Below, in pieces: positions 960 to 58,400 of a DNA stretch of 64,000 nucleotides; positions within the stretch are counted from its first letter, which is position 1, and every line of letters starts with the position of its first letter. The DNA comes from Loxodes magnus (Eukaryota > Ciliophora > Karyorelictea > Loxodida > Loxodidae). A model generated the notes under the pieces. It worked only from the letters and a program-made list of their open reading frames with translations. It did not search any database and was not told the origin of the DNA. The position numbers and the translations under genes were made by a program. The stretch is taken from contig CAMPDV010000108.1 in assembly GCA_946699065.1 (NCBI GenBank), positions 434,001-498,000 on the forward strand, given 5' to 3'.

Positions 960-3840
960 TTAACTACATTGAGGATCAAAAAATTAGAAAAGACCAATAA
1001 ATTAGATGGGATATATAAATAATAATGATTTATCTAGAAAGCGCTTGAATACCCAAGAATTATCAGAGATAATGCTCAGATATTTTACCAATAATTTAAA
1101 CCTGATTAAAAGAAGACTCTCTTCCGATATTGATAAATGGATATAGAATAAATTTTAAGCAATTTAGATAAAGGAGGTGTATATCTAAATATAGAAGATG
1201 AACTTAATAGTATAGAAATGCTTACATAAATTTAAAAATAACCAAATTGATTCTTTATAATTAAGTTGGATAATATTTTAATAACTTCTTGTTATATGCC
1301 TGATAGTGGAAAAAGCTGGGATGATAAAGATTATACATATAAATACCTTAACACATTGTTGAATTAATTTAATGATAATCTATATAATCTGATGTGAGAC
1401 TTAACGTTCTTTTAAAAGATTTTGAGACAATCCTTAAAATGCTTAAGACAATATCTTTAGATAATAAGAATTTTTACGATAAGATGATCTTGAGATAGTG
1501 AATTATTATAATATTAATACATATATACACAATGGATAGGAAGCTAAATTGTAATGATTATATATTATAAGTAACCATTTGAATATTAATTAGTTTGCAA
1601 GCTTCACTGCTCATAATAATAGTTCAATTTCTGATTTTATTCCAATCACTATCGATTTTATTTATAATTGTATAGACTATTGGGAAAAGATAACTCAGAG
1701 AAAATATAAGATTAATAAGTTAAAAGATGAAATAAATAGGTAAAAAAGATTAAGAATCTTTCCTGTAAACTTATCTAGAATTATTTTAGACAGATTAAGA
1801 AAATTCTAAATTCTAAGAAAAGAAATAATATGAAACTTGATTAAGAAATCAAAAATAAATAAATTTATTCGAAGAAGAATTTCATTTTTAGCAAACATTC
1901 TAATCTAACTCAATTATAGATCAATTATAGCAATTAAAAAATAGATAAAATATTCGATAGCATTTAAGAAATTAAAGATTATCCTCTCTCATATTTATAA
2001 GGATTTTATCTTTTAACTATACAAGAAATATAAGAAATTATAAAATAAATTCCAAATCGAAAAGCAGCTGGTCCGAATAAAAGGTAAATTTCTGAAGTAA
2101 AATGGACAATATTTGCTAATAATTATTCACTCTTTTCTGAATAATGTAATAATACTTATAAGAATTAATTTAAAATAAATACTCAGTGATTTTTCCAATA
2201 ATTAAAAGAGGAAATTAAGAAGATTGGAAAAACTGGCGACTAATGCGCTTATTAATATTATTCTTAAATTATATGATAAAGCTCTAACAAAAAGTTTATA
2301 TAATCTGATTTATTTGTAAAACTTTTTTACTCTTTTAAATGGCATTCATGTAAATATATAAATTACTTAATATTTTGGGTAATAAAATAAATAATTGATA
2401 ACTGTCAGAAATGCGCAAAAGGTAAAACTAAATTGATTGCAAAATTGATAGATTTTGTAAAATGCCTGACTCAATAGAAAGAAGACTTTGATTTGATTAA
2501 TTCAAGAAGGCCAAATTACCACTTGGACTAATAAAAAATTAGAATCATTTTATTAAAACCTAAATTCTTTATTATTATAGATTGAATAAATACTAGAACT
2601 ATATAATATAAAAGTGGAGTAATGCAAGTTCACATAGATAGCTTTAGCGTTGTTGTATTACGACATTTTAATCACATATTTGGAAAGTAAAATTAAACAA
2701 TAGAGATTCAAATGGTAGGGCTTGAGTGTTAGCTTCACGTGCAGAGGATGGGCGGATGATTTGATTTTGCTTTCAAAATCTGCAAAGTAAATGTAGATTT
2801 AATAAATGAACAAATAAATGTTTTGAATGAAATCATTTAAAATAAATGCTAAAAAAGCTGAATCTATCTAATTTCTAAAGAAACATTAGAAATAAAAAAT
2901 CTTAATTTATGATTAGAAAATTACCAACTGTTTATAAATGAAAAAGTAATATATTTAATAATTATTCATAATCGAAATAAGAATAGAATAACCATTGCAT
3001 AGAAGTCTCATTTAAGTTCTTAGCTGCAATGAAGAAAGCTGTTTTTAACTGATGAAATATAAAAATGATTCCTTGTCATTTTAAGACTCTATACAGACTT
3101 TTTGTTTTACCTTAAGTAGAATAAGAGAAAAATTAGTCCCATGAAGTATTCAAAAAGGAGTAAATGGAGTTCTGAACAGAATTGAATTAAATATGGGAAT
3201 GATTTCAAGAAAAACTTTTTAAGTAGCAATTTCAACATTTAATTATTCATGCTAGACCTGAATTGATTACCTTTTAAGCACATTATAGGTCTGAAATTTT
3301 TCCGATTCTACTATAAATGAAAAAAGAAAGTATTGATTTTCCAAGATCAATAATAGAATCTCTTTTCCTTAATATCTGGAAAAAATAATTTTAATACTTT
3401 AATTAAGTGTAATTTTAACAAATCTTCACAATATAGATCAGAAGAACTAATAGAATACCAGTTTTAAAATTTTACTAAAAATAAGAGCCAAAATAAAGCA
3501 ATATTTCTATAATGAAGTTACTAAAAATTTTATAAGAAAGAAAGAACCTAAATCATATTCTAAGAAATTCGGTTATCTTTAACAATTTCCACAATTGCTA
3601 ATACGAAGCTGAGTAAATAATAAAGACATTAAATTATTAATATATATAAACTTAGAACCTAATACTGAATTTTCGGAAGGATCTTTAAGATCGCTATTAT
3701 CCTATTGATAATCCCAATTGTGTATATGGAGAATACGAACATATCTTTAAATGTATATACTATTCTAATATAAGAAATTGACTATCGTAAAAATTTTGAA
3801 TTATTATTTAAGAAGTCTAATATAATATAAATAAAAACGG
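960..3840 (+). pseudogene. LINE ORF2: APE endonuclease-like plus reverse transcriptase, frameshifted
   Basis: Endonuclease signs are a CYMPDSGKSWDD block near 1288-1325, resembling the APE strand before the Tyr/Pro loop, and a SSISDFIPI block near 1625-1650 resembling the terminal SDH motif with His replaced. The RT part carries the AAGPN, NWR, ADD and KxNxKK motifs; the usual QGDPLSP box is degraded to a QVHIDSF reading. PNRKAAGPN is in frame 3, the NWR block in frame 2, the SGV box in frame 3 and the ADD box in frame 1. At least two frameshifts are therefore needed, although some could be small introns. The tail has C...C...H...C (CVYGEYEHIFKC), typical of LINE C-termini. The product is almost certainly non-functional. 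Confidence 0.65.
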
Positions 3841-3844
3841 ATGT

Positions 3845-4232
3845 CTGTCGCGGTAAGGAGAGCTAATAGGTAATCTGGTGCAATATATAATGCATTACGA
3901 GTAATCTCACGCTAGATGTCATCACAGAGAGGGTTGGACGGAAGAGGCAAGCTTAATTTGCGCGAGGATTCTCTCTAGCAGTATGAACGTTTGATTGACG
4001 GGTCTACTATTGACTTAATTACTATTTCTCATTTAGATCTTATTCAAAAGTCTGGAGCTTTTGGTTTAAGAATATAAAATAATTTTTAATAAGTAAATTC
4101 CCCATTTGGAGAAGCTGACGTGAATTATTGGAAGGCTAGATTTTTAACAAAAAGTATGATGACACCTTTTAATATTAATATCGAAAGAACTGAACACTAA
4201 CGAGGTGATAAGCGCTCGACAATCAAACCCAT
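3845..4232 (+). repeat. Dispersed repeat R, copy 1
   Basis: About 388 bp, clearly GC-richer than its surroundings, repeated almost without change at 9622-10009 (constant offset 5777; one difference noticed, near position 3860). The left edge is sharp: upstream sequences of the two copies are unrelated (LINE end versus another ORF). It contains a conserved core at about 3860-3990 that recurs in decayed form at about 11730-11880 and, inverted, at 33815-33965. The plus strand is free of TGA in one frame from 3841 right through the downstream gene, so it could be coding. Codon-position differences among decayed copies show no third-position bias, which does not support protein-level constraint. 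Nature unknown: a SINE-like element, a non-coding RNA gene or a mobile-element fragment. Confidence 0.7.
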
Positions 4233-4234
4233 CC

Positions 4235-4506
4235 ATCTTATTTTGACTATATTTAATAAAAATAAATCAGAAGTATCTACTCATTTAGTTGTTTATTGGC
4301 AACATAATGTTTAGATGTTTGCTTAATAATATAAATAAAGAAAAAGAGGCATTTGTAGTATTTTAGTTTCTCTATAGATTATAACATAAATTGTTTTAGA
4401 TTAGTCTGTATAATATAATTTTTATGATTTATATATAACTTTATAACATAACTAATTGTTTCTAATATAATGCTAGTTCAAATTCAAGTAAATAAATTAT
4501 TATAAA
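4235..4506 (+). promoter_or_regulatory. Conserved 5' block of variable-protein gene, copy 1
   Basis: 272 bp directly before the start codon, about 99% identical (3-4 differences by eye) to 6872-7143 and 10012-10282, which precede the other two family members. It is AT-rich. Its left edge is where homology with the middle copy begins. It likely holds promoter and 5' UTR, though an open frame continues through it into the gene. Confidence 0.6.
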
Positions 4507-5079
4507 ATGGGCTGTAAAAGTTCAAGAACTTATGAAAGTTTAACAACATATTAATGAAGTAACTTCGTCTGTGATCCTATGCTAAGTTATAAATTAGGCT
4601 TGCAATAATGTTAAAAAATAATACTTTGCCAACAAAAGTGCTAAGGCAAATTTCCTAGAGTTTTTAACTATTAGCATGCATTTCTTCTTTTCTTTTTCGA
4701 TAAATAATGTATTAGATTAGAAGTTTCATTTACTTAAGATTAGTAATAAGGATCAATAACGGCAAGTTAATTGACTTAAGTATAGCTTAATGACTTCATA
4801 CAAGAATAATTTTTAGAAAGAACGGAATATTAATTTCCATATGCTAAAAGAATTCAACTTAACATTACATTCTTAAAAATTATTTAGTTTTGCCAAGATT
4901 TCCTTAAATAAGAGAAAGAAGATAGAAAAAAATATCACTGTTTTAGGAATAATTGTTTCACATTTGTGATAAAATTACTGGTACATTTTAAAGTAGAAAA
5001 CTTAAAAAATGTGGCTGATAAATGGAATGAAGACAATAATTTCGGTTTAACATACTTAGTGGTGAACACTTTTAGTTGA
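4507..5079 (+). CDS. Small variable-family protein, possible LRAT/NlpC-like fold, copy 1
   Basis: 190 aa, ATG to TGA, no intron. It begins MGCKSS, a possible myristoylation/palmitoylation N-terminus. Two blocks are shared by all three copies: a hydrophobic stretch with His57 (HAFLLFFFD) and CFRNNCFTF with Cys150. A His followed about 90 residues later by an Asn-Cys motif recalls LRAT/NlpC-P60-type papain-fold enzymes, but this is weak inference. TGA is read as Trp at residue 17. The same family stands at 7144 and 10283; most codon differences between copies change the amino acid. All three end at TGA within a few codons of each other. Function unknown. Confidence 0.72.
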
Positions 5080-5319
5080 AGAGAAAACGAATAGAAATAT
5101 TATTAAGGATGAAAAATAAGTTTTTTTATATTAAATAAACAATCAAAAATTAAATTTTAATTCAAAATGACTAAAATAAAGAACAACAAATAAAGCATAT
5201 TTGAAGCTTTTATTTTTCTTCTCTACTTTTATAGTATAAGCTAAAGCTTATTCATTTGCAAAACGCTTCACGCTTTTAAGCTATTTATTTTTAAAGAATC
5301 AATTTTAAATTATTTTTAT

Positions 5320-6431
5320 TCATTTTTGTTATATCTCTTATCTTTTTAAAATTAATTAACTCGATATATAAATGAATTTCTTGATCAAGTTTTAATTATG
5401 AGTTTACTCTTCAAAATAACTTTATCTTTTCTTTTTTACCTAATGCTGCTCCTATTTAATGTTAGATACTCTTAAGTTACTTTTCTTCTTTATATTTTTA
5501 TTTTAGTTCATTTTAGATAGAGTAAATTAATTATTTTGGTATTTAGATGTTTCCAATTCTTATTCTATTATTTCAGCTAACTATTTTCAAATAAAGCTTT
5601 TTCTTCCTTTTATAGTGGTGTTCAGTCTGTTAAAGTTGTTTACCAATTACTAATTTCATATAATTTCTAATAATCTACATTTATTCTTATTCTCTGTCTT
5701 TGTGTTGAAATATGAACATAAAAATTCTTAATATATTAGCTTTTGGCTTTCCTTTATTTTTTAAGTCCAATTAACTTTGTCTTTAGATAAACTCTTATTA
5801 GGATGAATCAGTTCTGACTAAAACTAGCTATAATAAGTTGATTTTTTATCTTTATTTATTATAATTATAGTTAATCTTTTAAGATTATTTCTATTCATTT
5901 TAGTTTATTTTTACTTGAATGTTTCAGTAAATTTGCGCTTATAACTGCTTTCACATTTTCTTTATTAAAAGCTGCTATCAAATTTTCTTAACTAGCATTT
6001 TGCTGTTTCAAGATTTGCTGATATTTAATTTAGTTGCTCTGATATGTTTCAGTAAAAATAATTTATTATCCACAAACCCTTTCGAAGTAATAGTATTCAT
6101 TATAATAGATCTCGAAAATTTAATTTTAACTTTATGACTATATTTTTTAACATACTAATCAAATGATAAAAACTACTTCCACTTCATAACTTCGAAATTA
6201 ATAGAGTTAAGACAAATAAGATGCAATATAAACAAAATAAGCTCAATTTTCAATTAGAGAAGCTCTTAATAAAACAGTTTTCTTCAAATATTTATAATTT
6301 GTCTAGATAGTAAATCCAATAAAAGATATAAAAGGGTTTTTCTTAAATTCATCTTAAAGTGAATAAGAAAATAAAGAAGTTATATGTTGCTTTTGCTTTA
6401 CTGCAGCCTTTTGAATAAAAAATTATAGCAT
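5320..6431 (-). CDS. Hypothetical protein with one 17-nt intron
   Basis: Reading from ATG at 6431 to TGA at 5320-5322 with a 17-nt GT-AG intron at 5938-5954 removed gives exactly 365 codons (364 aa). The N-terminal 180 residues are mixed hydrophobic and aromatic; the C-terminal half is Lys/Gln/Asn-rich and probably helical. No known domain was recognised. The intron is supported by the change of coherent frame on either side and by length divisibility. An alternative start in another frame about 90 nt upstream (ATG near 6510) cannot be excluded. The gene lies head-to-tail between two copies of the variable family, on the opposite strand. Confidence 0.5.
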
Positions 6432-6871
6432 CGTAAATATAGTTGCATGCTGTGTAGTTAAAAATTAAGTATATTTTAGATTTTTTATTTATTATTTAAT
6501 CAAACATTTCTTAATTCTGCACTATTTAATAAAGAAACTATTCAATTAGTTTCCTTTTTATATGCTGATTAAGTATTTTCCTTGCTTTATTTCAATTATA
6601 AATTTTTAATTTAATATAAAACATTTTAGTAATGCTTTACTATTAAACTTTAGATATTTTACCTTTGCATTTTCTTTAAGTGCTTATTCTTATAAATTTA
6701 TTGCTTGCTTCACCTTTAAATTTCTATCATTTGATATTTTTTGTTTGAAAGAATTTAAAATTAAATTTCTGTTCACATGGAAATACTTTATTATTAATAA
6801 GGTTAATTTTAATATTTTCCTTTATGTCACAATTTCTCTTAGTGCTTTTTAAAATGTGTAAGGAATAATTT
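6432..6871. other. Intergenic, AT-rich
   Basis: About 440 bp between the minus-strand gene and the second conserved 5' block. It could contain an upstream exon of the minus-strand gene (an ATG in another frame lies near 6510); nothing else is seen. Confidence 0.4.
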
Positions 6872-7143
6872 ATCTTATTTTGACTATACTTAATAAAAAT
6901 AAATCAGAAGTATCTACTCATTTAGTTGTTTATTGGCAACATAATGTTTAGATGTTTGCTTAATAATATAAATAAAGAAAAAGAGGCATTTGTAGTATTT
7001 TAGTTTCTCTATAGATTGTAACATAAATTGTTTTAGATTAGTCTGTATAATATAATTTTTATGATTTATATATAACTTTATAACATAACTAATTGTTTCT
7101 AATATAATGCTAGTTCAAATTCAAGTAACTAAATTATTATAAA
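6872..7143 (+). promoter_or_regulatory. Conserved 5' block of variable-protein gene, copy 2
   Basis: Matches 4235-4506 with three substitutions noticed in 272 bp. Repeat R is absent here, so the block and R are separate modules. Confidence 0.6.
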
Positions 7144-7728
7144 ATGGGCTGTAAAAGTTTAAGTACTCATGAAGGCCGATTAACATACTAATAAAGTCAC
7201 TTCGACTGTGATCCATTTCTAAGCTATAATTTAGGCTTGCAGTAATGTTAAAAAATAATACTTCGCCAACAAGATTGCTAAAGCGGGATGCTTAAAAAGC
7301 TTAATGATAAGCATGCATTTCTTATTTTGTTTTTCGATGAAAAATAAATTAGAATAAGAGTATTATTTAAGTAGGGTAATAAAGAAGCGATTATTAAGGT
7401 AACTGAATTCACTTAAAAAGAGATTAGTGACTTAAAACAATAAGAATCTATAGAATAAAAGGAACAATAGTTTTCATATGATGAAACATAGTAATTTAAC
7501 ATTACATTCTTAAAAATTATTTAGTTTTGCCAAGATTTCCTTATATAAACGCAAGATGGCGGGGAAAATTATCGCTGTTTTAGAAATAATTGTTTCACAG
7601 TAATTATAAAATTACTGGAACATTTTAAAGTAGAAAACTTAAAAAAAGTGGCTGAGGAATGGAATAAGAAAAATAATTGTGGATGCACTAATTTAGAAGC
7701 TAATACTCTAAGTTAGATCTCTAACTGA
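7144..7728 (+). CDS. Small variable-family protein, copy 2
   Basis: 194 aa, ATG to TGA. It begins MGCKSL. It keeps the His block (HAFLILFFDEK), a FLKIIQFCQDFL helix and CFRNNCFT, but differs strongly from copies 1 and 3 between these, with in-frame length changes. That pattern indicates a translated protein rather than a relic. Where copies 1 and 3 use TGA (Trp) near residue 17, this copy has TAA (Gln). The last residues are unlike copies 1 and 3 before the TGA. Same tentative LRAT/NlpC-like interpretation; function unknown. Confidence 0.72.
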
Positions 7729-7924
7729 TAGAAATAATATTATATTACAAAATAACCTTTATAATTTTAAATAAATACAATAAAAAATAGATTTAATTCA
7801 AAATTTCTAATTAAAAACAATTTTAAGCCTGTTTGAATAAAGTGAGTGTTTTAGATTTAATATCTTAAATTATTTTTATTTTTCACTATAAATAAGTGTT
7901 TTAAATCTAGATTTAATATTATTA

Positions 7925-8480
7925 TATTTTAATTCTTTTTTAAGGCGTCGATCTCCCTTTCCTAATTAGTCAATCTCAAGTTAAGCATGTCTTATAGTCC
8001 GTGATCTATTCCTTCAGTTTTTTATTTTCCTTGCGGAGTTTCCTTATCTCTTTCTGGAAGTTCAACACCATCTTGAGGAGTTGTCTAAAGGATTGAATTT
8101 GAGACCTCCAGGTGTAGGGCAGATTTCGTTTACTTCCTTGTTTTCTCCTCCGGGTTTGGCGTATTTTTCGCGCGAATCTCTGCAGCTTTTTCTACTCTTC
8201 ATAGTTATGTTCCGGTTCCTACTTCCTGGGATAAAATCCCCTTCCGACATCTTGGATTTTTTAGTCATAATTATAATATTATAATAAAAAGAATTTTTTA
8301 AGGAAGATTTTAATTTGTCAGCCTTTAACTTAAAATCCTTGCCTTGATCCAATATTTTGAAGGAAACGCGTCTTAAGATTATTGGCTTGTAGGGATTTAA
8401 AATGTATGATTATGGAGTTGCACTCGTTACTATGATGGCTCTTGTTTAAAGAAACTGATAAGTAGAAAGTTCCCAAATTA
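7925..8480 (-). CDS. GC-rich coding-like stretch, minus strand, frame unresolved
   Basis: This island is much richer in G+C than its flanks and reads as protein on the minus strand. One frame gives a basic, Lys/Arg/Ser-rich protein with a MTKKSKMSEGDFIPGS block at about 8270-8220. A second gives an Arg/Gln-rich region followed by a heptad-like coil (LRKENKKLKEQI) at about 8030-7985. Either an intron joins them or one is an artefact. A basic segment plus a short coiled coil would suit a retroelement ORF1 or an RNA-binding protein. No catalytic motif is present. Plus-strand frames are also open but less convincing. Confidence 0.3.
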
Positions 8481-8829
8481 AAGAGGTTGTTCAGAGCAAG
8501 CATCACGGAGAGAGCTTAGCTTGCCTCTTACGTTAAAAATCAGGCTTTATTATTATAATATCGTTATATAATTTAATAAGGTAATAGCCAAAATGAGAAA
8601 GTATATTAAAAACATAAAATCGATTTAACTAGATTCTACTAACTTCATTGGCAATATAAAATGTTATGAATGATATTTTATCTTAAATAATCGTTAAAGT
8701 AAACGTAATTTCTAAAAAGCTTTATTTATGTTTTTAACTTAGTCTTAGTACAATAAAAATTATTCATGTTTGCATTATAATTTTTTGAATAATTTTAGTT
8801 TACTTTTTAGTAAAATATTTGCTAATATA

Positions 8830-9612
8830 AAAAAGGATTTAGTCTCTACTAGAACTCTAGAAAAACAACCTTAAACATTAGCTACGAAAAAGAAATATAA
8901 CTACTATTTTCTGGAAAATAAGACCCTAAAATCTTAAATCTTGAAATTAAACAAAAAAGAAAGACTCTGTTATAAATGCAGTGAAGATACAATAAGAAAA
9001 TAACTAACTAATAAAGGAATTTAGCAACAAATCTGAAACAAAAGAAATTAACTTTTACCTATAAAAATAGAAGAGAGATTCAAATCAATTACTACACATT
9101 AACAGTTATATATAGAAAAATAAACAATAGAGATAATGAGGATATTAAGAAGTACCAAAAACTTGACTACACCTATAAGTGGAGAAATATATTAAGATGA
9201 TGATTCTGAAAGAGGAAAGGACATCTAGTAAGGCAATATTTACAGTTTAAGTGAAGAATAAAAGAAAAAAAACTTTGAAGAAGGCTGGATCAACTGTATT
9301 GTACTCGAAAAATAAATCTATCCAAAGAAATTTTATCAAGAAATGAAACTTCATGAATCAATAACGGAAGCGAATAATCGATTAACGAGGAAAATGCAAT
9401 AAGGAGCTACACGATAAACAGAACTAAGAGAGTAAATAGAGGAAAGACCTTTATAGTAAAATGAAGATTGAGTTTAAGAAAAAGAAGAACTAGGAATCTA
9501 TGATCAACTTCAAATGAAGCAATAAAAATTTTATAAGAACAAATATATCTGAACTACAAGTGGTAAGCATAATAAAGGTAAATTCACTATAATAAATAAT
9601 AATATTATAAAA
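8830..9612 (+). CDS. ORF of unknown function directly upstream of repeat R, possibly a mobile-element gene
   Basis: A coherent polar frame of roughly 260 codons (phase of 8965) runs up to the left edge of R copy 2. It holds LCYKCSED near 8965, a single CxxC, several charged helices (LREQIEERP) and aromatic patches, and three TGA codons read as Trp. No start ATG or terminal TGA was fixed. R stops it abruptly, as R copy 1 abuts the LINE end. This may be a gag-like or ORF1-like relic; this is a guess from context, not from a domain match. Confidence 0.35.
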
Positions 9613-9621
9613 TAAAGATAC

Positions 9622-10009
9622 CTGTCGCGGTAAGGAAAGCTAATAGGTAATCTGGTGCAATATATAATGCATTACGAGTAATCTCACGCTAGATGTCATC
9701 ACAGAGAGGGTTGGACGGAAGAGGCAAGCTTAATTTGCGCGAGGATTCTCTCTAGCAGTATGAACGTTTGATTGACGGGTCTACTATTGACTTAATTACT
9801 ATTTCTCATTTAGATCTTATTCAAAAGTCTGGAGCTTTTGGTTTAAGAATATAAAATAATTTTTAATAAGTAAATTCCCCATTTGGAGAAGCTGACGTGA
9901 ATTATTGGAAGGCTAGATTTTTAACAAAAAGTATGATGACACCTTTTAATATTAATATCGAAAGAACTGAACACTAACGAGGTGATAAGCGCTCGACAAT
10001 CAAACCCAT
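9622..10009 (+). repeat. Dispersed repeat R, copy 2
   Basis: Almost identical to 3845-4232 (offset 5777) and, like it, followed without a gap by the conserved 5' block and a variable-family gene. R, 5' block and gene were therefore duplicated together or homogenised. Confidence 0.7.
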
Positions 10010-10011
10010 CC

Positions 10012-10282
10012 ATCTTATTTTGACTATATTTAATAAAAATAAATCAGAAGTATCTACTCATTTAGTTGTTTATTGGCAACATAATGTTTAGATGTTTACT
10101 TAATAATATAAATAAAGAAAAAGAGGCATTTGTATATTTTAGTTTTTCTATAGATTATAACATAAATTGTTTTAGATTAGTCTGTATAATATAATTTTTA
10201 TGATTTATATATAACTTTATAACATAACTAATTGTTTCTAATATAATGCTAGTTCAAATTCAAGTAACTAAATTATTATAAA
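10012..10282 (+). promoter_or_regulatory. Conserved 5' block of variable-protein gene, copy 3
   Basis: Matches 4235-4506 apart from about four changes, including a 1-nt deletion near 10133. That deletion breaks the frame open in copy 1 from R into the gene, which argues against the block being coding in this copy. Confidence 0.6.
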
Positions 10283-10852
10283 ATGGGCGGTAAAAGTTTA
10301 AGAACTTATGAAAGTAAGACAACATACTAATGAAATTATTTCAATTGCGATCCTATGCTAAGTTATAATTTAGGCTTGCAATAATGTTAAAAAATAATAC
10401 TTTGCCAACAAGATTGCTAAGGCAAATTTCCTAGAATTTTTAACTTTAAGCATGCATTTCTTATTTTCTTTTTCGATGAAAAATGTATTAGATTAGAAGT
10501 AACAATTTAAGGTGATAGTAAATCCATAATTCAAGCATTTGAAATTAATTTGCAATAATTTAACGATTTAAAGCAAGATAAAACGTTTTCTTAAAGAGAG
10601 TAAATGATTTCATTTGCTGAAAGAGTTTTACTCAACATTACAATTATAAAAATTATTTAGTTTTGCCAAGATTACTCTTTATATATGATAGAAAATGGTA
10701 ATGATTATCACTGTTTTAGGAATAATTGTTTCACATTTGTGATAAAATTACTCGAATATTTTAAATTAAAAAACTTATAAAAAGTTGCTGAGGAATGGAA
10801 TAAGAAAAATAATTCCGGTACAACATACTAAGTGACAAACACTTTAGGTTGA
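10283..10852 (+). CDS. Small variable-family protein, copy 3
   Basis: 189 aa, ATG to TGA, beginning MGGKSL, so the Cys3 of the other copies is lost while Gly2 stays. It keeps HAFLIFFFDEKC, an IIKIIQFCQD helix and HCFRNNCFTF. Compared with copy 1 over the first 72 codons, about 14 of 17 changed codons alter the amino acid, while the upstream 650 bp are nearly identical. It has one internal TGA (Trp) near residue 17. Tentative LRAT/NlpC-like protein; function unknown. Confidence 0.72.
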
Positions 10853-29820: not shown

Positions 29821-32800
29821 ATGGAAACTTATAATTCAGATGAGAGAACTTATTTTGAAAAAGGAAACAGTTTTTTTAGTTAAAATTTATACTAAGAGGC
29901 TTTAGAAAGTTATGATTAAGCTATCAGCAAAGATTCTAACTGCTGGGAAGCTCATTACAACAAAGGGAAAATATTTTGAAATATGGGAAAAATTGAAGAA
30001 GCATAATAAAGTTTTAATAAAGCAATTAAAATAAATCCTGAAAGTTCATAAGCAAAATACAATTTAGGAATAGTCTCTCTAAGATTAAAAGACAATAATA
30101 AAGCAATAGAAAGTTTTAGTCAAGCTATAAAACTAGATCCTTATGACTCTACAGCTCACTATAATTTAGGAATAGCTTTTTATAATAATAAATTATATTA
30201 AGAAGCAATAGAAAGTTATAGCAAAGCCATATAAATGAATTCTAACTATTACGAGGCTTATGTCAACAAAGGAATAACACTTATAATTTTAAATAAAAAT
30301 GAAGAGGCAATAGAATGTTTTAATTAAGCTATTATTTTGAATTCTTAAAATTCTTTGCCATACAATAAAAAGGGAATGGCACTTAGACAATTAAATAGAA
30401 ACCAAGAAGCTATATAATGCTTCAATGAAGCTATCATAATTAATAAAAATGACTTTTCAGCATATAATAATAAAGGTTTGACTCTGATTGCCTTATAAAA
30501 ATATGAAGAAGCAATCATTTGTTTCAATAAAGTTATTGAAATCAACTAGAAATGTTTAGAAGCATATAATAACAAAGGAATAGCACTGAGTAATTTAGAT
30601 AGAAATTAAGAGGCAATAAAATGCTACGAAGAAGCTATAAATCTTAATTCTAACGATTATACAGCTTTAATTAATAAGGGAATTGCTCTTAGAAAGTTAG
30701 GTAGAAATAAAGAAGCCATAGAAATTTATATAGAAATAATAAAGATTGATGATAATAATTCTTATGCTTATTACAATCTAAGCATAGTTCTTTTAAATAA
30801 TAAATCATATTAAGAAGCTATTTAGTATTGTAATAAAGCTATAATCATTGATAGTAAAAATTATAAAGCATATAATAATAAAGGAATATGCCAATATAAT
30901 TTGAGTCTAATTGATAATGCATTAGAAAGTTATAAATCAGCTATTTAAACCAATAAACAATTTCCATAAGCTTTATATAACCAAGGAATAATATTTTATA
31001 ATTAAAATAAATATGAAAAAGCATTAGAAATTTATAAATAAGTAGTATAATTAGATCCAAATAACTTTTGAGCTTATTATTACTAAGGAATAATTCTTAA
31101 GAAGTTAGAAAGAAAAGAGGAAACTACTAAATGCTTTAATTGAATATACAAAATATTTCCTTCTATAGTTAAAACTTTTCATATCAAAAATTCATCTTTT
31201 CCTTATCTAAAAAGTAGTGATGAAGCTTTAAATTTTTGTGATTTAATTAAAGAACTCGATCTTAATTAATACTATTTATTAAAAGGAGATACATTTAAAA
31301 ATTTGGATATAAATTAAGAGGCATTAGCATGTTACGAGAAATGTATTGAAATTAGTCCTTAAAATCATGAAGCTTGAAATAACAAAGGATTAGTATTTAG
31401 AGAATTAAATAAATTTAAAGAAGCTTTAGAATGCTATAATGAAGCAATAAGGCTAAATCCTAATTTTTATCAATCTTATAATAATATAGGAGCAGTATTT
31501 TATTTTTAAAAAAATTATAAGCAAGCAGAAATAAAATATAGAAAGGCAATATAACTTAACTCTAGTGATTCTGAATATTATTTTAACTTGGGAATATCTC
31601 TTTACTATTAAAATTAAAATTAAGAAGCTATATTAAACTTGAAAAAGGCTATTGATATTACTTCTAATGTATCAAAATACTTTGATGTATTAGGAAAATC
31701 TTATGAAAAATAAAAAATGTTTGAAGAAGCTATTGATTGCTATGATTAGGCTATTAAGCATAATCCTTTTGATTACACTTATCATAATAATAAAGGTGAT
31801 GCTTATTCAAAACAAAGTTAATTTTTAAATGCAATAAAAAGCTACGATTAAGCAATAATTATTTCTCCCGTGAGTTCTATAACTTGATATAAAAAAGCTA
31901 ATGCTCTCCATGAAATTGGTTAATTTATAGAAGCTATTAAATGCTTCGAAGCTGCAATTAATACTGATTCTAAAATTTCAAAATATTGATATAGAAAAGC
32001 GAAATCATTGTATCAACTGACTAAATGCTAAGAAGCGATTGATTGCTTAAATTAAGCAATCAATCTCGATCCAATTAATTCTTAATATCATTTTAAAAAA
32101 TCTGAAATATAAAATAAGCTAAAATAACAATAAAATCCAAAGCAAAGCTTAGAAATTTCTTAAATTGAGTATAATGAATAAACTGAAAGCTCTATCTAAT
32201 CTTAAAGTTTTTCTACATAATGATAAGAAAGTGAAAACAGTAGTTATAATATAGATTATAATTCTTAGGAGGATTAAACTGATTAATTATTATAAAATCT
32301 ACTAGATTGTCCTAGTTAAAATATGATTAAAATTTTATTTAATCTTTAAAGATTAAATCAAAATGGAGATAACGCATCTTTTCCTTTTCGGATTTTAAAT
32401 TATTATTAAATAATTCCTAATAAAAATTATTTAAGCTAGAATATAATAGATGAAGGTGGTAATGGAGCAGTTTATAAAATAAATATAGAAGGCTTAGATT
32501 ATGCTTTGAAGAAATTACATTAAGACAAAAATTAATAAAATATATTACGATAGTTTTATAACGAATGCATCGCTCTTTTGAGCATTAATCATTAAAGAGT
32601 AATTAAACTTGAAGGAATTGCTATTGACACTTCTCAGAAGAATAACTTATAACTATGCTATTATACTAAGTATTACCCTAAAGGTAGCTTATTTGATTTA
32701 ATTAAGACTAAAAAATTATTTGTAGAAGATAAAAATGATAAATAAGCTAGATTTGTAAAGAAGCTTATATTGCTATTTTAAATAGCTGAAGGAATAGAAG

Positions 32801-33456
32801 CCATTCATATGAAAGGTTTAGTTCATAGAGATATAAAATCTCCAAATATACTAATAGATGATGATTATACTCCTAAAATAGCTGATTTTGGCATTGCAAA
32901 TTTAGCTTATAAAGCAACTACTTAAGAATATAAAGGAACACGATAATGAATGGCTCCTGAAATATATGAAAATAAAGTAAGTAAAAAAAGTGATATTTGG
33001 TCTTTGTCTTGTGTTGCTATAGAGATTTTCAACGAAACTTAACCATTTCCAGACTTAATTGATGAATAATTAATAAAATAAAAAGTTTAAAGAGAAAGAA
33101 TATCTCCAATTCTTTCAGAAGAAATTAAACAAGATAATTCTTTAACAAAATTACTATTATAATGCTTTAATTATGATCCTAAGTAAAGACCTGATATTGC
33201 TCATTTCCTAAAAAAAATTGAAAGATTGATATGAAAATACAATCCACAAAAAGATTAATCTATGAAATCCCAATAAGATTAAAGCTCAAGTAACGAAAAA
33301 TTTATTTACTAATAAACATGGGTTGGATTTAAAGCTAACAGTTCTTCTAGTTCTTTAACTTAGTTATCGAAAAAACACAGCTTATTTGAAAGTTCGTCTC
33401 AACAATCTTCAAAGGAAGGTTTGAAAGTAGACATAAGTGAAAGTTCTAGTAAATGA
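29821..33456 (+). CDS. TPR-repeat protein kinase 1
   Basis: 1211 aa if the first tail TGA (33454-33456) is the stop. Residues about 8-800 are some twenty tetratricopeptide repeats (YNKG...L...EAI.CY..AI..NP), a protein-protein interaction solenoid. The C-terminal kinase domain shows GGNGAVYK (near 878), [18 protein letters not shown] (near 1001), DFG (near 1021) and QWMAPEIY (near 1043, Trp as TGA), so all catalytic residues are present; subfamily resembles RAF/TKL-type kinases. The tail is Ser-rich. TGA as Trp also appears in TPR positions (FWAYYY, EAWNNKG). A downstream tail similar to that of the third paralogue leaves open that this TGA is Trp. The 319 bp at 32573-32891 are nearly identical to the second kinase gene. 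Confidence 0.93.
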
Positions 33457-36747: not shown

Positions 36748-39700
36748 ATGTATGCTTTTCATAAAGGAGCTGAAATCTTATCGACCAAAGAAAATTCCAT
36801 CGAAGAAATAACTTAAAAAAGTTAATTTAGTGAAAACATCAATATGTTTTTGGATCATGATAGTTCTTTCAATTCTAGTTAGAGTTAACTGAGAGCTTAT
36901 TATTCAAAAATAATTGAAGAGGACTAAGAAAATTCTAATCAAAGTCAAAGTGACTTATAAAATCCTAACGATTCTATAGTTTAAAACAATAAGTGATAAG
37001 CTCTTACTGATTTAAGGATTAATGAAGAAGCAACAGATAATTAAAACGAATTTTTAAGAATTAACACTAATATATCTCAAAACATCTATTATAACGAAGA
37101 TTTGACAAAAAACTCTAATAAAAAAGAATGAAATATCATTAGTCAAAATCAGGAAATTCAATTAAAACCTTAAAATTATCTTGATTATGCAAAATAAGGA
37201 ATAGCTCTGAGCTAGTAAAATAGATGCTAAGAAGCTATAAAATGTTATGATCAAGCTTTATAAATAAATCCTAATGATTTCTTAATTTGATACAACAAAG
37301 GAATAGCATTTAACTAGTAAAATAGTTATGAAGAAGCAATAAACTGCTATGATAAAGCTATCATAATAAATTCTAGCCATTTTGAATCTTATTTCAATAA
37401 AGCTTTAGCACTCGATTGCTTGAACAGAAATGAAGAGGCGATAGAAAATTTAAAAATAGCAATTTAACAAAAATTGAATTGTTCTGAAGCTTATAATAAT
37501 ATGGGAATTTTACTTAGGAAGTTGAATAGAAATGAAGAAGCAATTAATAGTTTTGATTAAGCACTTTAAATTAATCCAAATGATCTATTAGCAATTAATA
37601 ACAAAGGAAATTTACTTGTAGTATTAAATAGGAATGAAGAAGCTTTACAAATTTATGATAAAATAATTAAAATAGATCTTAATAATAATGCTGCTTATAA
37701 TAACAAGGGTATAGCTCATTATAATTTACAGTAATATTAGGAAGCAAAAAAGAGCTTTAGTCAAGCCATTTAAATTAGCGCTTCTATTCCTGAGCCTTAT
37801 AATAATAGAGGAAATACATTTAAAAAACTTAATTTAAATATAGAAGCATTAGAAGATTATAATAAAGCTATTGATATCAATTCTTCTTTTTATCAAGTTT
37901 ACTTTAATAAAGGACTATTATTTTATAGTTTAAATAAATCTCAAGAAGCTATTGACGCATTTGATAAAGCTTTATAACTTAATCCTAAATTTCAAGAAGC
38001 TTGGATAAGCAAAGCAATATCCCTCAGAATTCTGAATAAAAACTTAGAAGCAATAGAATGCTATAATTAAGTTATAAAACTCAATCATAAAAGTTATTAT
38101 GCATACCATAGCAAAGGGACAACTCTCTATAATTTGAATAACCATTAAGAAGCAATAGAATTCTATGAATAAGCTATTTAATTGAACTCGAATTATTATT
38201 AAGCTTACAATAGCAAAGGATTAGCACTAAAATATCTGAACAAGTATGAAGAAGCTATAGGATGCTATTAAAAAGCTGTAGAAATAAATCCAAATTTTTA
38301 TCAGGCTTATAGCAATTTAGGAATAGTTCTTAAGTAGTAGTAAAAATATAACGAATCCATTAAGAATTTCGATATAGCAATCAAAGTCAACTCCAATTAC
38401 TCAGATGCTTGGAATAATAAGGGTTTAGCTCTATATGGTTAAAAAAGATTTGAAGAAGCAAAGTAATGCTACAAACATGCAATAAACATTAATCATGAAG
38501 TTTCTGAATACTTTAATAATTTAGGGCAGGCTTATAAAAAACTGATAAAGCTTAACGAAGCATTAAAATAATTTGATTTAGCGATTAATCTTAGTCCTTC
38601 TAATTTTCTCTACCATAGTAATAAAGGCAATATTCTTTCAATGCAATAAAAATATCAAGAAGCATTAAAATGCTATGATACTGCGATTTAACTTAATCCT
38701 AATTGCCAATAAAGTTTATATAGTAAAGGCATTGTTCTTTAGAGTTAAAATAGATTTAATGAAGCTCTAGAATGCTTTAATTAGTTAATAGATATCAAAC
38801 CTTAAAATTCATAATTCTACGACTAAAAAGGATTCTTTTTACTAAAACTAAATAGAATAGAAGAAGCACTTGAATGCTTTAATATGGCAGTAAATCTAAA
38901 TCCTAACAATCCTTAGTTCTGGTTTAATAGAGGTTTCGCTACTTATTTGTAAGGTGAGCTCTAGTTGTCAATTGATTATTATAATATTTCCTAAAATCTA
39001 AAATCTAAATCTTTTGAATGAGGAAACATTACTTAATAAAATCCAAAATTATATCTAAGCCACAAAGCTTTTGAAAGCTATAACTAATTCCTTTATCTTA
39101 TTCCTAATATTAAAAAAAATAAGCTAAGTTAGTATAATTCTCCTTCTTCTTAATAAGAACTTACTATTATCGACAATTTAATATCATTTATTTACCAAAA
39201 TGGAATAAATACTAATGGCCATTCAAATATCAGAGTTTGAGAATATAGGAAATTGATTCCAAAAGAAGAATTTTTATAAAAATAAAAAATTATAGGGACA
39301 GGTGGAAATGGAATAGTTTATAAATTAAATATAGAAGGCTAAGATTATGCTTTTAAGAAATTACATTAAGAAGTAGAAGGAAATTAATAATTGTTATTAG
39401 ATACGTTTTACAATGAATGCACTTCTCTTTTGAGCATTAATCATTAAAGAGTAATTAAACTTGAAGGAATTGCTATTGACACTTCTCAGAAGAATAACTT
39501 ATAACTATGCTATTATACTAAGTATTACCCTAAAGGTAGCTTATTTGATTTAATTAAGACTAAAAAATTATTTGCAGAAGATAAAAATGATAAATAAGCT
39601 AGATTTGTAAAGAAGCTTATATTGCTATTTTAAATAGCTGAAGGAATAGAAGCCATTCATATGAAAGGTTTAGTTCATAGAGATATAAAATCTCCAAATA

Positions 39701-40278
39701 TACTAATAGATGATGATTATACTCCTAAAATAGCTGATTTTGGTACTGTAAGTGAAGCTAATATAACAACTACTTTATAGGGTAGAGGATCATTCTAATG
39801 AATGGCTCCTGAAATATATGAAAATAAAGTAAGTCAAAAAAGTGATATTTGGTCTTTGTCTTGTGTTGCTATAGAGATTTTCAACGAAACTTAACCATTT
39901 CCTATCTTGAAAAACTCTTTTTAATTTTACTAGGCTATTTGCATCGATAAACATATTCCTTTGCTTTCATAAGAAATTACTTAAGAGCCTGCTTTAACGA
40001 ATTTGCTATTAAATTGCTTTAAATAAATTCCTAAGGCAAGACCTGAAATTTAAACTTTCAAAAAAGGGATTAATAGTTTGTTATAAAAAAGAAAACCATT
40101 TATTTAAGATATGCAGCAAGAAGTAAATTCAGCTAATTAAGTTTCTTAAGAAATATTTGTATATCAAGAAAATTATTAAGTGCTACAGTATGTTCCTGTC
40201 AGTCAAGAATAATCTTTATCCTTTTTTTTAAACTTAGAGGATTAAAATTGCATTTCAAGTTCAATCCCCTGCATTTGA
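36748..40278 (+). CDS. TPR-repeat protein kinase 2
   Basis: 1176 aa, ATG 36748 to TGA 40276-40278. About 140 N-terminal residues are Asn/Gln/Ser/Glu-rich. TPR repeats span about 143-740, then comes a linker and the kinase: [10 protein letters not shown] (near 850), [18 protein letters not shown] (near 976), DFGTVSE (near 996), FQWMAPEIY (near 1018). The gene is paralogous to those at 29821 and 55464. The segment 39425-39743 matches the first gene at 318 of 319 bp, and 39798-39902 nearly so, although flanking kinase sequence differs, suggesting gene conversion. It is likely an active kinase recruited by TPR contacts; targets unknown. Confidence 0.93.
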
Positions 40279-41058: not shown

Positions 41059-42408
41059 TCACTACAAGCTATTCATTTTGTAGCGAGCTCTTAGTTCATA
41101 TTTATATTCATTCCAATCTTGTATCTACTTCTTAGCTATTCCTGATTCTACTGCTGCTTATGCTGCTGCCATTGAAACTACTTCTATTAATCTTGGATCA
41201 AAAGGAGTTGGGATTATATAATCTGTTCCATATTCTAATTATCTGCCTTCATAAGCTTATGCGACTACTTAAGGTACTGGTTCTCTGGCTAATTTCGAAA
41301 GAGCAATTGCAGCTGCCATCTTCATATTCTCATTTATTTCAGATGCTCTAACATCTAATGCTCCTCTAAATAAAAAAGGAAAGCACATAACATTATTGAC
41401 TTAGTTTGGATAATCTGATCTTCCTGTCGCTACTATAGCATCAGGACGAACCTCTTTTACTTTTTCGGGTCTTATTTCAGGTTCTGGATTAGCCATAGCA
41501 AAAATAATAGGTGAAGGATTCATTTTCTTAACCATTTCTTAAGTTACAGATCCTGCTACAGAAACACCAATAAATACATCAGCACCTTCTAATGCTTATT
41601 CTAATGTTCTTTTATCAGTTTCTATAGCAAGCTGATTTTTTCATTTATTCATTCCTTTATTTCTACCTTTATAGCAAACTCCGATACTATCACACAAAAT
41701 CAAATTTTAACCTTTAGCTCCATATGCCAATATCAAATTAGCACATGCGATTCCTGCTGCACCTGCTCCACTTATAACTATTTTTAAATCACTAAATTTA
41801 CGTTTAGTTATATCACAAGCATTGATAAGTCCAGCTAGACAAACTATAGCAGTTCCATGCTAATCATCATGAAAAACAGGAATGTTCATTTACTCTTTAA
41901 GCTTTTGCTCTATATAGAAACAGTCAGGACCTTTTATATCTTCTAAATTAATTCCTCCAAAACTAGGAGCTAAGCATTTAACACAGTTAATAAACTCATC
42001 TGGATTTTATGTATCTACACATAAATCTATGCTTTCAACACCTGCGAATTTATTAAATAAAACTGCTTTTCCTTCCATCACTGGTTTACCTGCCAATGCA
42101 CCTATGTTACCTAAACCTAGTACAGCTGTTCCATTACTTATAACAGCAACGCAATTTCCCTTTGTTGTATATTCATATGCTTTCTCTGGATCTTTAGCTA
42201 TGAGCTAACAAGGAATAGCAACTCCCGGAGAATAAGCAAGTGAAAGATCTTTTTAATTATTAAGTGGCTTAATAGCTTTTATTTTAAACTTTCCAGGAGT
42301 AGGAACCTTATGATACAAAAGTGGTTCAGGATCATAATATTTAGAAGAACTTCCATGCCTTGATGTAAGTTAAATAATAGAAGTTGGAAAAATATTTCTG
42401 AATTTCAT
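41059..42408 (-). CDS. NAD(P)-dependent malic enzyme, probably mitochondrial
   Basis: 449 aa, ATG 42408 to TGA 41059-41061, no intron. It catalyses oxidative decarboxylation of malate to pyruvate. Landmarks: [31 protein letters not shown], metal-binding region PVFHDDQHGTA, nucleotide-binding [24 protein letters not shown] and [10 protein letters not shown]. It resembles the short bacterial-type enzyme without a phosphotransacetylase domain. The first 25 residues ([19 protein letters not shown]) are basic and Ser/Thr-containing, a plausible mitochondrial presequence. TGA in MNKWKNQL reads as Trp; many TAA/TAG read as Gln. Cofactor preference (NAD or NADP) not decided. Confidence 0.95.
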
Positions 42409-43879
42409 ATTTTTAACTCTATTATCTAAATTAAAAGGCAAAGCTAATACATTCTATTAATGATCTTATTTAAATAGCTTCTCTTGCATACATAATAATA
42501 GTAATAGCTTAAAATAGCTTACCTTCTTTAATAAGCATATGTTTAAAAGATTAAAATAAGTTATTTGTAGTATTTAATATTAAGCTATATAGAGCTATTT
42601 AAATAAGCACTTTAACTAGAAATAGCTTATCTTATTGATTTATATATACAGGTATCAGATTATTGTTGCTTAGTGTTTAGCTAAATAAAGGTTCTATGCT
42701 TGCTTAAGATATACCAACATACTATGCTTCTAATAAATTATTTATAAATATTAGAAAAAGAGATATAAAACGATTAAACCTAACTAAAATAAAATAAAGT
42801 TATAGGATTATAGTTATTATATATAGTTACTATACTCCTTCATTTAATATCACTTATTACTTGAAATTACATACAAGTCTAGTTAAAATGATAGATATAC
42901 TTACTATAAACCAATCTTTTATGCTATAATATCATGTTTAAGTTTAATTAGAACGTGCCATGAAAGAAAATTAGTATGATAAAAGTAAATTTAAATACTT
43001 AGAATGAAGATTAAAGAACTATTATTTACTTTAATGATAATCATTTAACTCTAGCTATATCAATTAGCTCATAGTACTATCATATATAAATTTAGATCTT
43101 TAACTTCATCTTTAGCTTTTTAATTCTAAAATCTATCTTTAAAGTTTTATTATTTATAATAAATTTTAGGTATATTATTAATCTATGACTAAAGCTAAAT
43201 TCATTCTAGTAATTATAAAAGCCCTATAGCTAATATAAAAAAGTAATATAATATGAGCAAGTTAATAAAGAATATGTAAGATAATAGATAAATAAAGCTA
43301 AAATAAGAATATATATAACTTTGGATACTATATTCTATATTAAATGAATGATGTAATAAGAAGGGTATAATTTAAGTATATATGAATCATTTAAATTTAT
43401 TAATCAAATAAATTTACTAGAACTTAAATATAATAATTTTAGCTAGTAGAATTAAGCTAGATAAGAGAAGATATTAGTAATAGAAAAGCATGAAAATAGT
43501 ATAAAATACTAATACTAATATTCTATCTTTGTTCAAGATAAACTACATAGAATAAATAGAAATTTAGTTTGTAGTGTCTTGAATAAGCTACATATAATTT
43601 AATTATTGTAATTAAATTAGTGATAAACAGAATATTAACAAATTATTATAAATATTGTATTAATTCAATCTAAAGTACATTGAATTTTCAAAATAAGAGT
43701 GTTTCAAAATCAAACGATAAGTATAAAATGCACTGACTAATAATTAGAGATGATTAAAGAGGTAAGCTTGTATGAAGCTTTAGTTAATAGTAATTTGATA
43801 TAAAATATTGATTCTAAATTATTAATGATTTATTACTTAAATTTTTATAGTCAAAAATTAGTTAAGGCTTCTTTATAGA
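42409..43879. other. AT-rich intergenic region
   Basis: Divergent promoter region of about 1.5 kb. No gene, RNA or repeat seen. Confidence 0.45.
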
Positions 43880-55463: not shown

Positions 55464-58400
55464 ATGCTCAACTAAGAGACTAATTCTATTATCCAAATTA
55501 TTGAAGAAGGCTTGGATCTTTTCAAACTAAATAGATATGAAGAGGCAATAAAATAGTATAATAAAGTGATTTAACTTTAGCCTTTAAATTCTGAAATTAT
55601 ATATAATAAAGGAAATGCCCTTAAGAAATTAAATAACTACTTAGAAGCAATAGAATGCTACGATCTAACTATTAAAATCAACCCCAATAATTATAAAGCT
55701 TATAACAATAAAGGGATAGCGCTATTTAAACTAAAAAGATATAAAGAAGCAAACAGTTGCTACAAATAGGCTGTTAAGATAAATCCTAATTTATTTGAAT
55801 CATATAACAACTAAGGTAGAGTTTGTATAAGCTTAAACAAATACGAAATGGCTATTTGATTCTTCAATAAAGCAATAAAGCATGATAAGAATAATTACAT
55901 AGCTTATTGCAACAAAGGCAACGTACTCTAGAAGCTAAAATGCTACGAAAAAGCAATCAATAATTATAGTAAAGCACTTGAAATAAATCCTAACTACTTT
56001 AAAGCTTATAATAATAACGGAAACACATTATTAAAGCTTAAAAATTATGAGTAGGCAATAAGCTGTTATAATAAAGCTATTTAGATAAATCCTAATAGTT
56101 ATAAGATTTTCATTAACAAAGGAAGAGCTTTATATCATCTAAATAAACATGAAGAAGCAATACAATCTTATGATCAAGCTATTTAGATTAATCCCAAAAT
56201 ATCTAAAGCTTATGAAAATAAAGGTCTAAGTCTTTTTAATATGAAGAGACATGAAAAAGCTATAGAGTGCTATGATTAGGCAATTTAAATAAATCCCATT
56301 AATATAACAGCATAAAAAAATAAACTGGTTACACTTAATATTCTAAATTTGCATGATGACGATTTTAAAACTTATAGCTAGTCTATCTCAACCTATTAAA
56401 ATAACTCAGTTGTATATTTTAATAAAGGATTGGCTCTTCATAATATTAATAAATTCGAAGAAGCAATAAAATATTTTGATCTAGCTATTTTATTGAACTA
56501 AAAATATTCAAAAGCATATCATTGTAAAGCGGATTCTCTTAGAAACCTTAATAGAAATGAGGAAGCTATTTAATGTTATAGTTAGGCTATTAAACTAAAT
56601 CCTAATTATTGAGAAGCCTATAACCATAAAGGTCTAGCCTTCTTTTATTGAAATAGATACAAAGAGGCAATAGAAAACTATAATAAATCTATTTAAATTA
56701 ATCCAAACAATTCTAAAGCTTATTACAATAAAGGGTTGGCTCTTTACTGTCTAAAATAGAATGAAGGTGCAGTAGAAAGTTATAGCTAAGCCTTAAGACT
56801 TAAATCTTCTAATTGAAAAGCTTGATTTAATAAAGGAAATAGTCTTTTTTGCTTGAATAAATATGAAGAGGCGATAGAAAGCCATAATTAAGCTTTATAA
56901 ATAAATCCTTATAGCTTTGTTATTTTAAAAAATAAAGGAGATATTCTATTAAAACTAAATAGATTTTAAGAAGCATTAGAGTGCTACGATAATTGTATTT
57001 AATCCATTTCGTCTTACTCTCAAACTTGAATTAATAAAGGACTTGCACATCAAAAATTAGGTGGACTAACAGATGCAATCGAAAGTTTCAATAAAGGTAT
57101 TTAGCTCAATCCTTAAAATCCAGAGTATCATTATTTTTTAGGAAATTGCTAGTTAAAATTAAATAAATATAAAAAAGCTCTTGAAAGCTTTGATTTTGCA
57201 ATAAATCTTAGTCCTAATAATCTCTATTATTAAATACTTAGATGAATTACTACTTTTATGATATAAGGAAATTAGGAAGGAATTCCATCATCAAATATCT
57301 CATACTAGCAAAGTCCTTACTTACTTTAACTCAACAATAAGCAAAACCTTCTTTCAGAATTAGATTAAAAATAATTAGAAATAGATAATTATACTCTTGA
57401 AATAGTACTCAGCCCAATTTTAGCTGCTAAGATTTTTATTTAATAAAACTAGAAATGGTAACTCGGTGCTTCTGATATCATAAATGATTTGTTAAAATAT
57501 GCAAATTCGATTAGATCTAGTAAGTGTCCATATTCAAAAATAAAAGTTTAAAAATATAAAGATTTGATACCAAGTAAAAAATATCTAAAATCCTTAACTT
57601 TAATTAGTAAAGGTGGATATGGAAAGGTGTATAAAATATTAATAGAGGGAAATTGGTATGCCTTAAAAAAAATAACTGAAAGAAAAGAAAAATAGAAAAA
57701 TATAGACTCATTTTATAACGAATGTAAAGCTATTTTGAGTATTAATAATGAAAGAGTAATTCAAATTTAAGGAATAGCTATTGACTTATCTGAATCAAAT
57801 TTCTAATTATGCCATTATACTAAATTTTTCCCTAAAGGAAATTTATATAATATAATTTAGTCTTCGTCATTATTTGTGGAATGTAAGTGCAATCCTATTT
57901 TAAGATTTTTTAAGAAACTTGTTCTGTTAGGTCAAATATCAGAAGGAATTGAAGCCATTCACTAGAAAGGCTTTATCCATAGGGATATAAAATCTTAAAA
58001 CATACTAATAGATGATGACTACACTCCTAAAATAGCTGATTTTGGCTTAGTGAATGAGGATTACATAACTACTACTTTAGAAGCTAGAGGGTCAAGTTAG
58101 TGAATGGCTCCCGAGTTATTTGGAAAAAAAGTTTACTAAAAAAGCGATATTTGGTCACTGGCTTGTGTGGCTATAGAGATCTTTAATGAAACTTTGCCTT
58201 ATCCAAATTTGGTTACTGCTGAATAAATAATTAAAATTCTTTACTTAGATAGAAAATTTCCGCTATTTTCAAAAGAAATTTAAATGTTCCCTGATTTATC
58301 TTAATTATTACAAAATAGTTTTAAGTTTGATCAGCAAAAAAGACCCGATATTTAGCATTTTACAAGCACTATAAATAACCTGATTCAAAAAATTAAATCA

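Follow-up and report, generated by a model that had tools for sequence, protein, structure and literature searches.

In this study, we analyzed a 64,000-nucleotide stretch of DNA from the ciliate Loxodes magnus (contig CAMPDV010000108.1, positions 434,001 to 498,000; hereafter the window), which contains three small tandem genes (copies 1, 2 and 3). The DNA directly upstream of these genes is nearly invariant, whereas their coding sequences differ heavily. The boundary between the two parts is sharp, silent divergence is raised in the coding part and there is no overall excess of replacement changes. We consider it probable that this mosaic is the product of patchy ectopic gene conversion among the members of a small tandem family, the coding sequences of which diverged under weak constraint. 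Block-wise homogenization would thereby have given the upstream DNA and the coding DNA of this ciliate separate histories. It should be noted that coding DNA less conserved than its upstream DNA is easily misread as a sign of positive selection, and that the test of silent sites decides. All evidence on the family comes from three copies in one assembly.

Mosaic structure of the three genes

The proteins encoded by copies 1, 2 and 3 have 190, 194 and 189 residues, respectively, with pairwise identities of 56–60% (coordinates are shown in Table 1). Apart from a TGA at codon 17 (see below), the reading frame is intact in all three copies, copy 3 lacking one in-frame codon. No fourth copy was found in the window by tblastn (next best expectation value (E) 0.12).

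The 5' block differs at 4/273 sites between copies 1 and 2, at 3/272 sites plus one gap between copies 1 and 3, and at 5/272 sites plus one gap between copies 2 and 3, whereas the coding regions differ at 135/573, 125/570 and 149/570 sites, respectively (22–26%). The contrast drawn in a preliminary description of this DNA, near-identical upstream blocks before heavily different coding sequences, is thus confirmed. When the pairwise alignments were divided into segments selected by the Bayesian information criterion (minimum segment length 20 nt, gaps ignored), the first edge fell at 4491 for copies 1 and 3, at 4522 for copies 1 and 2 and at 4526 for copies 2 and 3, that is, between −16 and +20 of the ATG. 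Copies 1 and 2 showed 4/289 differences up to this edge and 27.7% beyond it, and copies 2 and 3 showed 6/292 and 27.4%. For copies 1 and 3, the successive segments contained 2/630 (3861–4491), 26/244, 52/96, 48/240 and finally 2/75 differences, the coding part between the edges diverging by 11%, 54% and 20% in succession. Within the coding region, differences were clustered beyond all 2000 shuffles in every pair, and a 48-nt stretch (4859–4906) without a single difference between copies 1 and 2 lies amid about 27% divergence. All six kinds of base change were present.

We also considered whether the blocks could be coding exons of the same protein. In copies 1 and 2, the frame of the ATG stays open, with no TGA, along the block, but in copy 3 it is broken by a 1-nt deletion. 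This deletion and the low guanine plus cytosine (GC) content of the block (17–18% vs 25–28% in the coding regions) disfavored a coding exon. The codon score was also lower in the block than in the coding regions, although it separates coding from non-coding DNA weakly and some intergenic stretches score as high as genes. Judging from these sequence properties, the block is probably non-coding and would probably comprise the promoter and 5' untranslated region (UTR).

Silent divergence in the two halves

Coding silent divergence (dS, NG86 method) was 0.34 for copies 1 and 2, 0.27 for copies 1 and 3 and 0.58 for copies 2 and 3, more than 10 times the divergence of the 5' block (1.1–1.8%). At codons specifying the same amino acid in copies 1 and 3, there were 11 silent changes among 65 silent sites, compared with 3 changes among 272 sites of the block (Fisher p = 1.5e-6). 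In addition, silent changes clustered together with replacements (permutation p = 0.0078 for copies 1 and 2, 0/5000 for copies 1 and 3, and p = 0.0052 for copies 2 and 3); chance residue matches in hypervariable stretches inflate the counts of this test, which is supportive and not decisive alone. Such co-clustering fits a patchwork in which old blocks alternate with recently copied ones; selection on amino acids alone would not have this effect. Because of the more than tenfold silent divergence and its clustering with replacements, we judge from the alignments that the 5' block and the coding part have different histories. The homogenization of the 5' ends that had been proposed before is likewise supported by the near-identical block beside such high silent divergence.

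Flanking DNA shared by copies 1 and 3

Copies 1 and 3 resemble each other beyond the block. The segment upstream of it (3836–4233 in copy 1) differs between them at 6/398 sites, all six within its first 25 nt (3836–3860), and from 3865 to 4233 they differ at 0/369 nt. On both sides, the flanks of these two copies are 97–99.7% identical. The segment before 4234 is absent from copy 2, in which the 3' flank is also different, at 22–23 of 66–67 sites. The upstream segment contains a coding-like fragment of 131 codons (3841–4233 and 9618–10010), in whose frame no TGA occurs in 3865–4233, vs four and six in the other two forward frames. No Pfam family matched this fragment at E 0.1, the best match among PDB sequences had an E of 0.2, and a scan of viral contigs gave 5 pattern matches and no relative. 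None of about 83 silent sites in the segment is changed between copies 1 and 3, whereas 14–18 silent differences would be expected at coding-region rates (P = 2.5e-7 or 8.7e-10 with two silent-rate estimates). A separate island of 40% GC is located between copies 2 and 3 (7950–8270).

These observations bear on the possibility that the 5' block is held by strong purifying selection, as a dense regulatory region or non-coding RNA, the coding sequences having evolved at an ordinary rate since old duplications. The near identity of the block along its whole length in three copies agrees with such constraint. However, RNA structure in the block was not beyond that of shuffled sequences (z = 0.82 and 1.31) and a search of Rfam with the block gave zero matches, on which grounds an RNA gene was rejected. 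Constraint on the block also leaves unexplained the invariant upstream segment, the patchy silent identity within the coding region and the tract shared by two kinase genes (see below). As far as the sequences allow a judgment, the identity at all 369 positions is the strongest point against mere constraint, and we consider this explanation unlikely.

Selection on the protein

In codons 1–72 of copies 1 and 3, about 14 of 17 changed codons had been reported to be non-synonymous; our count agrees on the 14 replacements and gives a total of 16 changed codons. Over the whole gene, replacements made up 84/98 changed codons for copies 1 and 2, 75/86 for copies 1 and 3, and 80/99 for copies 2 and 3. 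This dominance of replacements was previously regarded as the reverse of normal, but it matches the neutral expectation: in neutral simulations starting from copy 1, 84% of changed codons were replacements on average (95% range 76–91%).

The ratio of replacement to silent divergence (dN/dS, omega) by NG86 was 0.81 for copies 1 and 2, 0.97 for copies 1 and 3 and 0.47 for copies 2 and 3. In maximum-likelihood (ML) codon models, whole-gene omega was 0.68 (p = 0.18), 0.78 (p = 0.42) and 0.38, respectively, and the last pair alone was significantly different from 1, lying below it (twice the log-likelihood difference 13.0). With three sequences, the power to judge individual sites or short stretches is low, and the local values should be read with this in mind. 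For codons 74–118, ML omega was 1.46 (copies 1 and 2, p = 0.55), 0.45 (copies 1 and 3) and 0.21 (copies 2 and 3). NG86 point estimates were 8.6 (copies 1 and 3) and 2.2 (copies 2 and 3) for the 11-codon stretch 132–142, and 3.9 (copies 1 and 3) for the 12-codon stretch 179–190; pooling the variable codons of copies 1 and 3 gave 1.49. Selection at single sites is possible.

Recent duplication of whole units and subsequent rapid diversification of the protein by selection, for recognition or in a conflict, would agree with the high identity of the copy 1 and copy 3 flanks on both sides and with omega above 1 in some stretches (codons 74–118 in copies 1 and 2, 132–142 and 179–190). However, divergence relative to the 5' block is increased to about the same extent at silent and at replacement sites, and selection on amino acids alone does not lift silent divergence more than tenfold above the flanks. 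Considering also the neutral fraction of replacements and the ML omega below 1 in all three whole-gene pairs (and in two of the three pairs for codons 74–118), we rejected positive selection as the main cause, and the diversifying selection suggested in the preliminary description appears quite improbable. The coding sequences would rather be under weak constraint.

A second mosaic in kinase paralogs

A similar pattern was observed in protein-kinase genes of the same window, which are outside the family. Two kinase domains (K1, 32437–33255; K2, 39283–40107), about 6.9 kb apart, share a tract in which 97 of 100 codons are identical, none has a silent change and three have replacements, vs 22 identical, 7 silent and 42 replacement codons in the last 71 codons compared. 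The third relative (K3, 57591–58409) has no such tract: in the equivalent stretch, the numbers of identical, silent and replacement codons were 45/18/36 and 44/17/38 relative to the other two. Positions 32861–32980, which we take to be the activation segment, are flanked by near-identical blocks and contain 26 identical, 1 silent and 13 replacement codons. NG86 omega over the whole kinase domain was 1.2 between K1 and K2, and the two comparisons with K3 gave 0.29 and 0.37; the mosaic distorts the first value, which did not serve as a clean control. Since a mosaic is also present in an unrelated kinase pair, block-wise copying between paralogs is not peculiar to the gene trio.

This is relevant to the proposal of a dedicated diversification system in the style of antigenic variation or mating type, with a constant 5' module and a core rewritten from donors or by targeted hypermutation. 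The variable core does lie between better-conserved blocks, with the frame kept in three copies, and either direction of conversion would fit the data. On the other hand, neither further copies nor donors were found in the 64 kb, the six kinds of base change bear no sign of a single mutator, and the kinase mosaic makes a general process enough. The cassette system envisaged in the preliminary description has thus gained no positive evidence, and we hold a dedicated system to be very unlikely. An equally slim chance is given to a more specific version, in which the core (codons 74–118) would be rewritten from donors elsewhere in the genome, producing membrane-anchored recognition or enzyme variants, with the kinases as a second user. 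Were the 5' module actively maintained and the cores exchanged, this locus would offer a testable diversification system.

Gene conversion as the proposed mechanism

On the basis of these results, patchy ectopic gene conversion probably acted as follows. The coding sequences of older tandem duplicates would have drifted apart under weak constraint, and short ectopic conversion tracts would time and again have replaced the DNA before them, which is probably promoter and 5' UTR. In the pair of copies 1 and 3, such tracts would also have covered about 370 nt further upstream and the 3' flank. Conversion would in addition have occurred in small patches inside the coding region. The outcome would be chimeric genes that combine a young common 5' half with an older diverged coding half. 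Conversion, as opposed to constraint or replacement of the coding part, is the mechanism that we infer; the direction of copying and the function of the 5' block are likewise inferred.

Several points weigh against this explanation. First, all three pairs have their edge close to the start codon. Conversion by itself does not predict such a common position, and it must also be supposed that selection acts against converted coding parts or that homology there has become too low. Second, with three copies from one assembly and no outgroup, overwriting of the 5' part and replacement of the coding part both fit. A recent duplication of whole units, after which unseen donors supplied new coding cores, could look alike. 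Third, at a silent rate of 5%, the lowest that is plausible and taken from the least variable parts of the copy 1 and copy 3 coding pair (2/38 sites), four silent differences would be expected in the upstream segment, and the finding of 0/83 is then only moderately strong (P = 0.014). Finally, strong constraint on the 273-nt block itself is possible, as is an assembly error as the source of the copies.

The BEX/WEX/GASP genes of mammals are described as chimeric, their 5' UTR having a history independent of that of the coding region (PMC1274310). These are also linked, fast-evolving genes with recently homogenized 5' UTR and upstream DNA and older, diverged coding sequences, for which conversion was invoked. 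Comparable features of the trio are the 5' difference of 1.1–1.8% beside a coding dS of 0.27–0.58 and the sharp tract edges (4491, 4522 and 4526) within homologous units. The mammalian case comprises more than 20 genes, 5' UTR exons and trees from several mammals, whereas ours comprises three ciliate copies; moreover, the partners GASP4 and BEX2/BEX3 are stated there to have no discernible protein similarity, whereas the trio can be aligned (PMC1274310). Homogenized blocks between paralogs are also found in interlocus gene conversion, for example in Caenorhabditis (PMC3966223); the trio differs from that general picture in having an edge near the start codon in all three pairs. None of the papers searched names both Loxodes and gene conversion. 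The pattern of the trio, although real, resembles gene-family evolution that has already been described.

Genetic code of the window

The window is AT-rich (19–30% GC per 2 kb). With the bacterial code, a single open reading frame of at least 80 amino acids was present in its first 14 kb, whereas many long frames appeared in the window when TAA and TAG were taken as sense codons; 17 in-frame TAA/TAG codons were listed for each of copies 1 and 2. In all three protein-kinase genes, a TGA occupies the Trp position of the motif WMAPE (32947, 39799 and 58101), and the first kinase has a second in-frame TGA at 33232. For one kinase, the WMAPE TGA was placed by alignment to solved kinases (plant CTR1). 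The third kinase domain gave zero matches at E ≤ 1e-20, and its Trp was therefore assigned from the alignment to the other two kinases. An in-frame TGA also stands opposite an aromatic residue in a malic enzyme gene aligned to solved enzymes. Together, the kinase and malic enzyme TGAs lead us to read the window as ciliate nuclear DNA in which TAA and TAG encode Gln and internal TGA encodes Trp. Such a code is reported for karyorelicts, for example Loxodes, and for the heterotrich Condylostoma (PMC11441545, PMC4967479).

Codon 17 of the gene trio is TGA in copies 1 and 3 and TAA in copy 2. Since ciliates usually read TGA as a stop, copies 1 and 3 are whole genes only if this codon is read as Trp, a reading that the other genes of the window support; TGA would then serve both as Trp and as a stop in this ciliate. 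At the position where copies 1 and 3 have their terminal TGA, copy 2 has a TAG (7714–7716); it could be a stop under a Condylostoma-type code or Gln under the karyorelict code. That copies 1 and 3 are drifting pseudogenes stopped at codon 17, with copy 2 alone functional, would agree with this TGA and with an omega of this pair not different from 1, but is hardly credible given that TGA is sense in the kinases and malic enzyme, that no frameshift occurs in 570 nt at 22% divergence and that His57, Asn149 and Cys150 are kept.

Putative fold of the protein

As previously noted, a His and an Asn-Cys site are invariant (His57 and Asn149-Cys150 in all three copies). The N-terminal MGCKS, said to be kept as well, is MGGKS in copy 3; we take this start to be a predicted site of N-terminal lipid modification, whose Cys is thus absent from copy 3. 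An enzyme of the permuted papain (LRAT/NlpC/PPPDE) type that is anchored to a membrane is one candidate for the protein, although this is a guess from His57, Asn149-Cys150 and the predicted order of strands and helix. In two AlphaFold2 models, both poor (predicted local distance difference test (pLDDT) 41.7 and 39.4), position 57 falls within a strand and position 150 within a helix, the strands preceding the helix. With the first model, Foldseek returned nothing usable (best E 0.26) and VIA-align listed a papain-like enzyme in 0 of 50 titles shown, which excludes nothing as the model is poor.

In Pfam searches with codons 18–190 of copy 1, DUF4796_C (18.4 bits, cut-off 28, E 0.0018) and Peptidase_C97 (12.8 bits, cut-off 29.2, E 0.11) both remained below their cut-offs; with the whole proteins, DUF4796_C appeared below its cut-off in two of three members (best E 0.002) and Peptidase_C97 was not listed. 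DUF4796_C may itself belong to the permuted papain fold. Other weak Pfam matches (SUI1, 0.012; PCNA_N, 0.042; TseH, 0.025; GCR1_C and DUF6982, >0.2) were judged to be due to chance. Among PDB sequences, the family alignment had zero matches at E 10, and the best matches of copy 1 had E of 0.36 and 1.9. Scans for relatives of the protein gave 96 pattern matches in viral contigs and 241 in prokaryote genome contigs, of which 0 were confirmed in either set; as they use few peptide patterns and presumably the standard code, these scans had little power to reveal relatives in ciliates. In circularly permuted NlpC/P60 enzymes (LRAT-like, PPPDE; PMC3142127), the His comes before the Cys, and the Cys lies near the C-terminus in a helix; the residues of the trio would agree with this arrangement if the two low-confidence models are right in placing strands first and a helix around Cys150. 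In contrast to those enzymes, here the profile matches are below cut-off, the models have pLDDT <42 and there was no usable fold match.

Features of the window

Table 1 Coordinates of the gene trio, its flanks and the kinase tract in the window
Feature	Position	Strand	Remarks
Near-invariant 5' block, copy 1	4234..4506	+	18% GC; differs at 4/273 sites from copy 2 and at 3/272 from copy 3
Near-invariant 5' block, copy 2	6871..7143	+	Homology starts approximately here; upstream segment absent
Near-invariant 5' block, copy 3	10011..10282	+	Carries the 1-nt deletion
Coding sequence, copy 1	4507..5079	+	190 codons + TGA; codon 17 TGA read as Trp
Coding sequence, copy 2	7144..7728	+	194 codons + TGA; no internal TGA
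Coding sequence, copy 3	10283..10852	+	189 codons + TGA; codon 17 TGA read as Trp; MGGKS start
Variable core, copy 1 (codons 74–118)	4726..4860	+	52/96 differences to copy 3 at 4739–4834 (segmentation)
Upstream segment, copy 1	3836..4233	+	36% GC; coding-like frame from ATG 3841; common to copy 3 only
Upstream segment, copy 3	9613..10010	+	Matches 3836–4233
3' flank, copy 1	5080..5150	+	2/67 differences to copy 3, 23/67 to copy 2
Kinase tract (comparison only, outside the family)	32561..32860	+	Near-identical to about 39413–39712 in a second kinase gene; much of the remainder strongly diverged

The malic enzyme gene (41062–42654, reverse strand) matched solved NADP-dependent chains with a best E of 5e-172, compared with about 1e-15 for mitochondrial NAD-dependent ones. 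A gene for a TPR-repeat protein was found at 37291–39018, with 15 TPR_1 stretches in Pfam, and two more (29980–31884 and 55860–56609) were recognized by eye.

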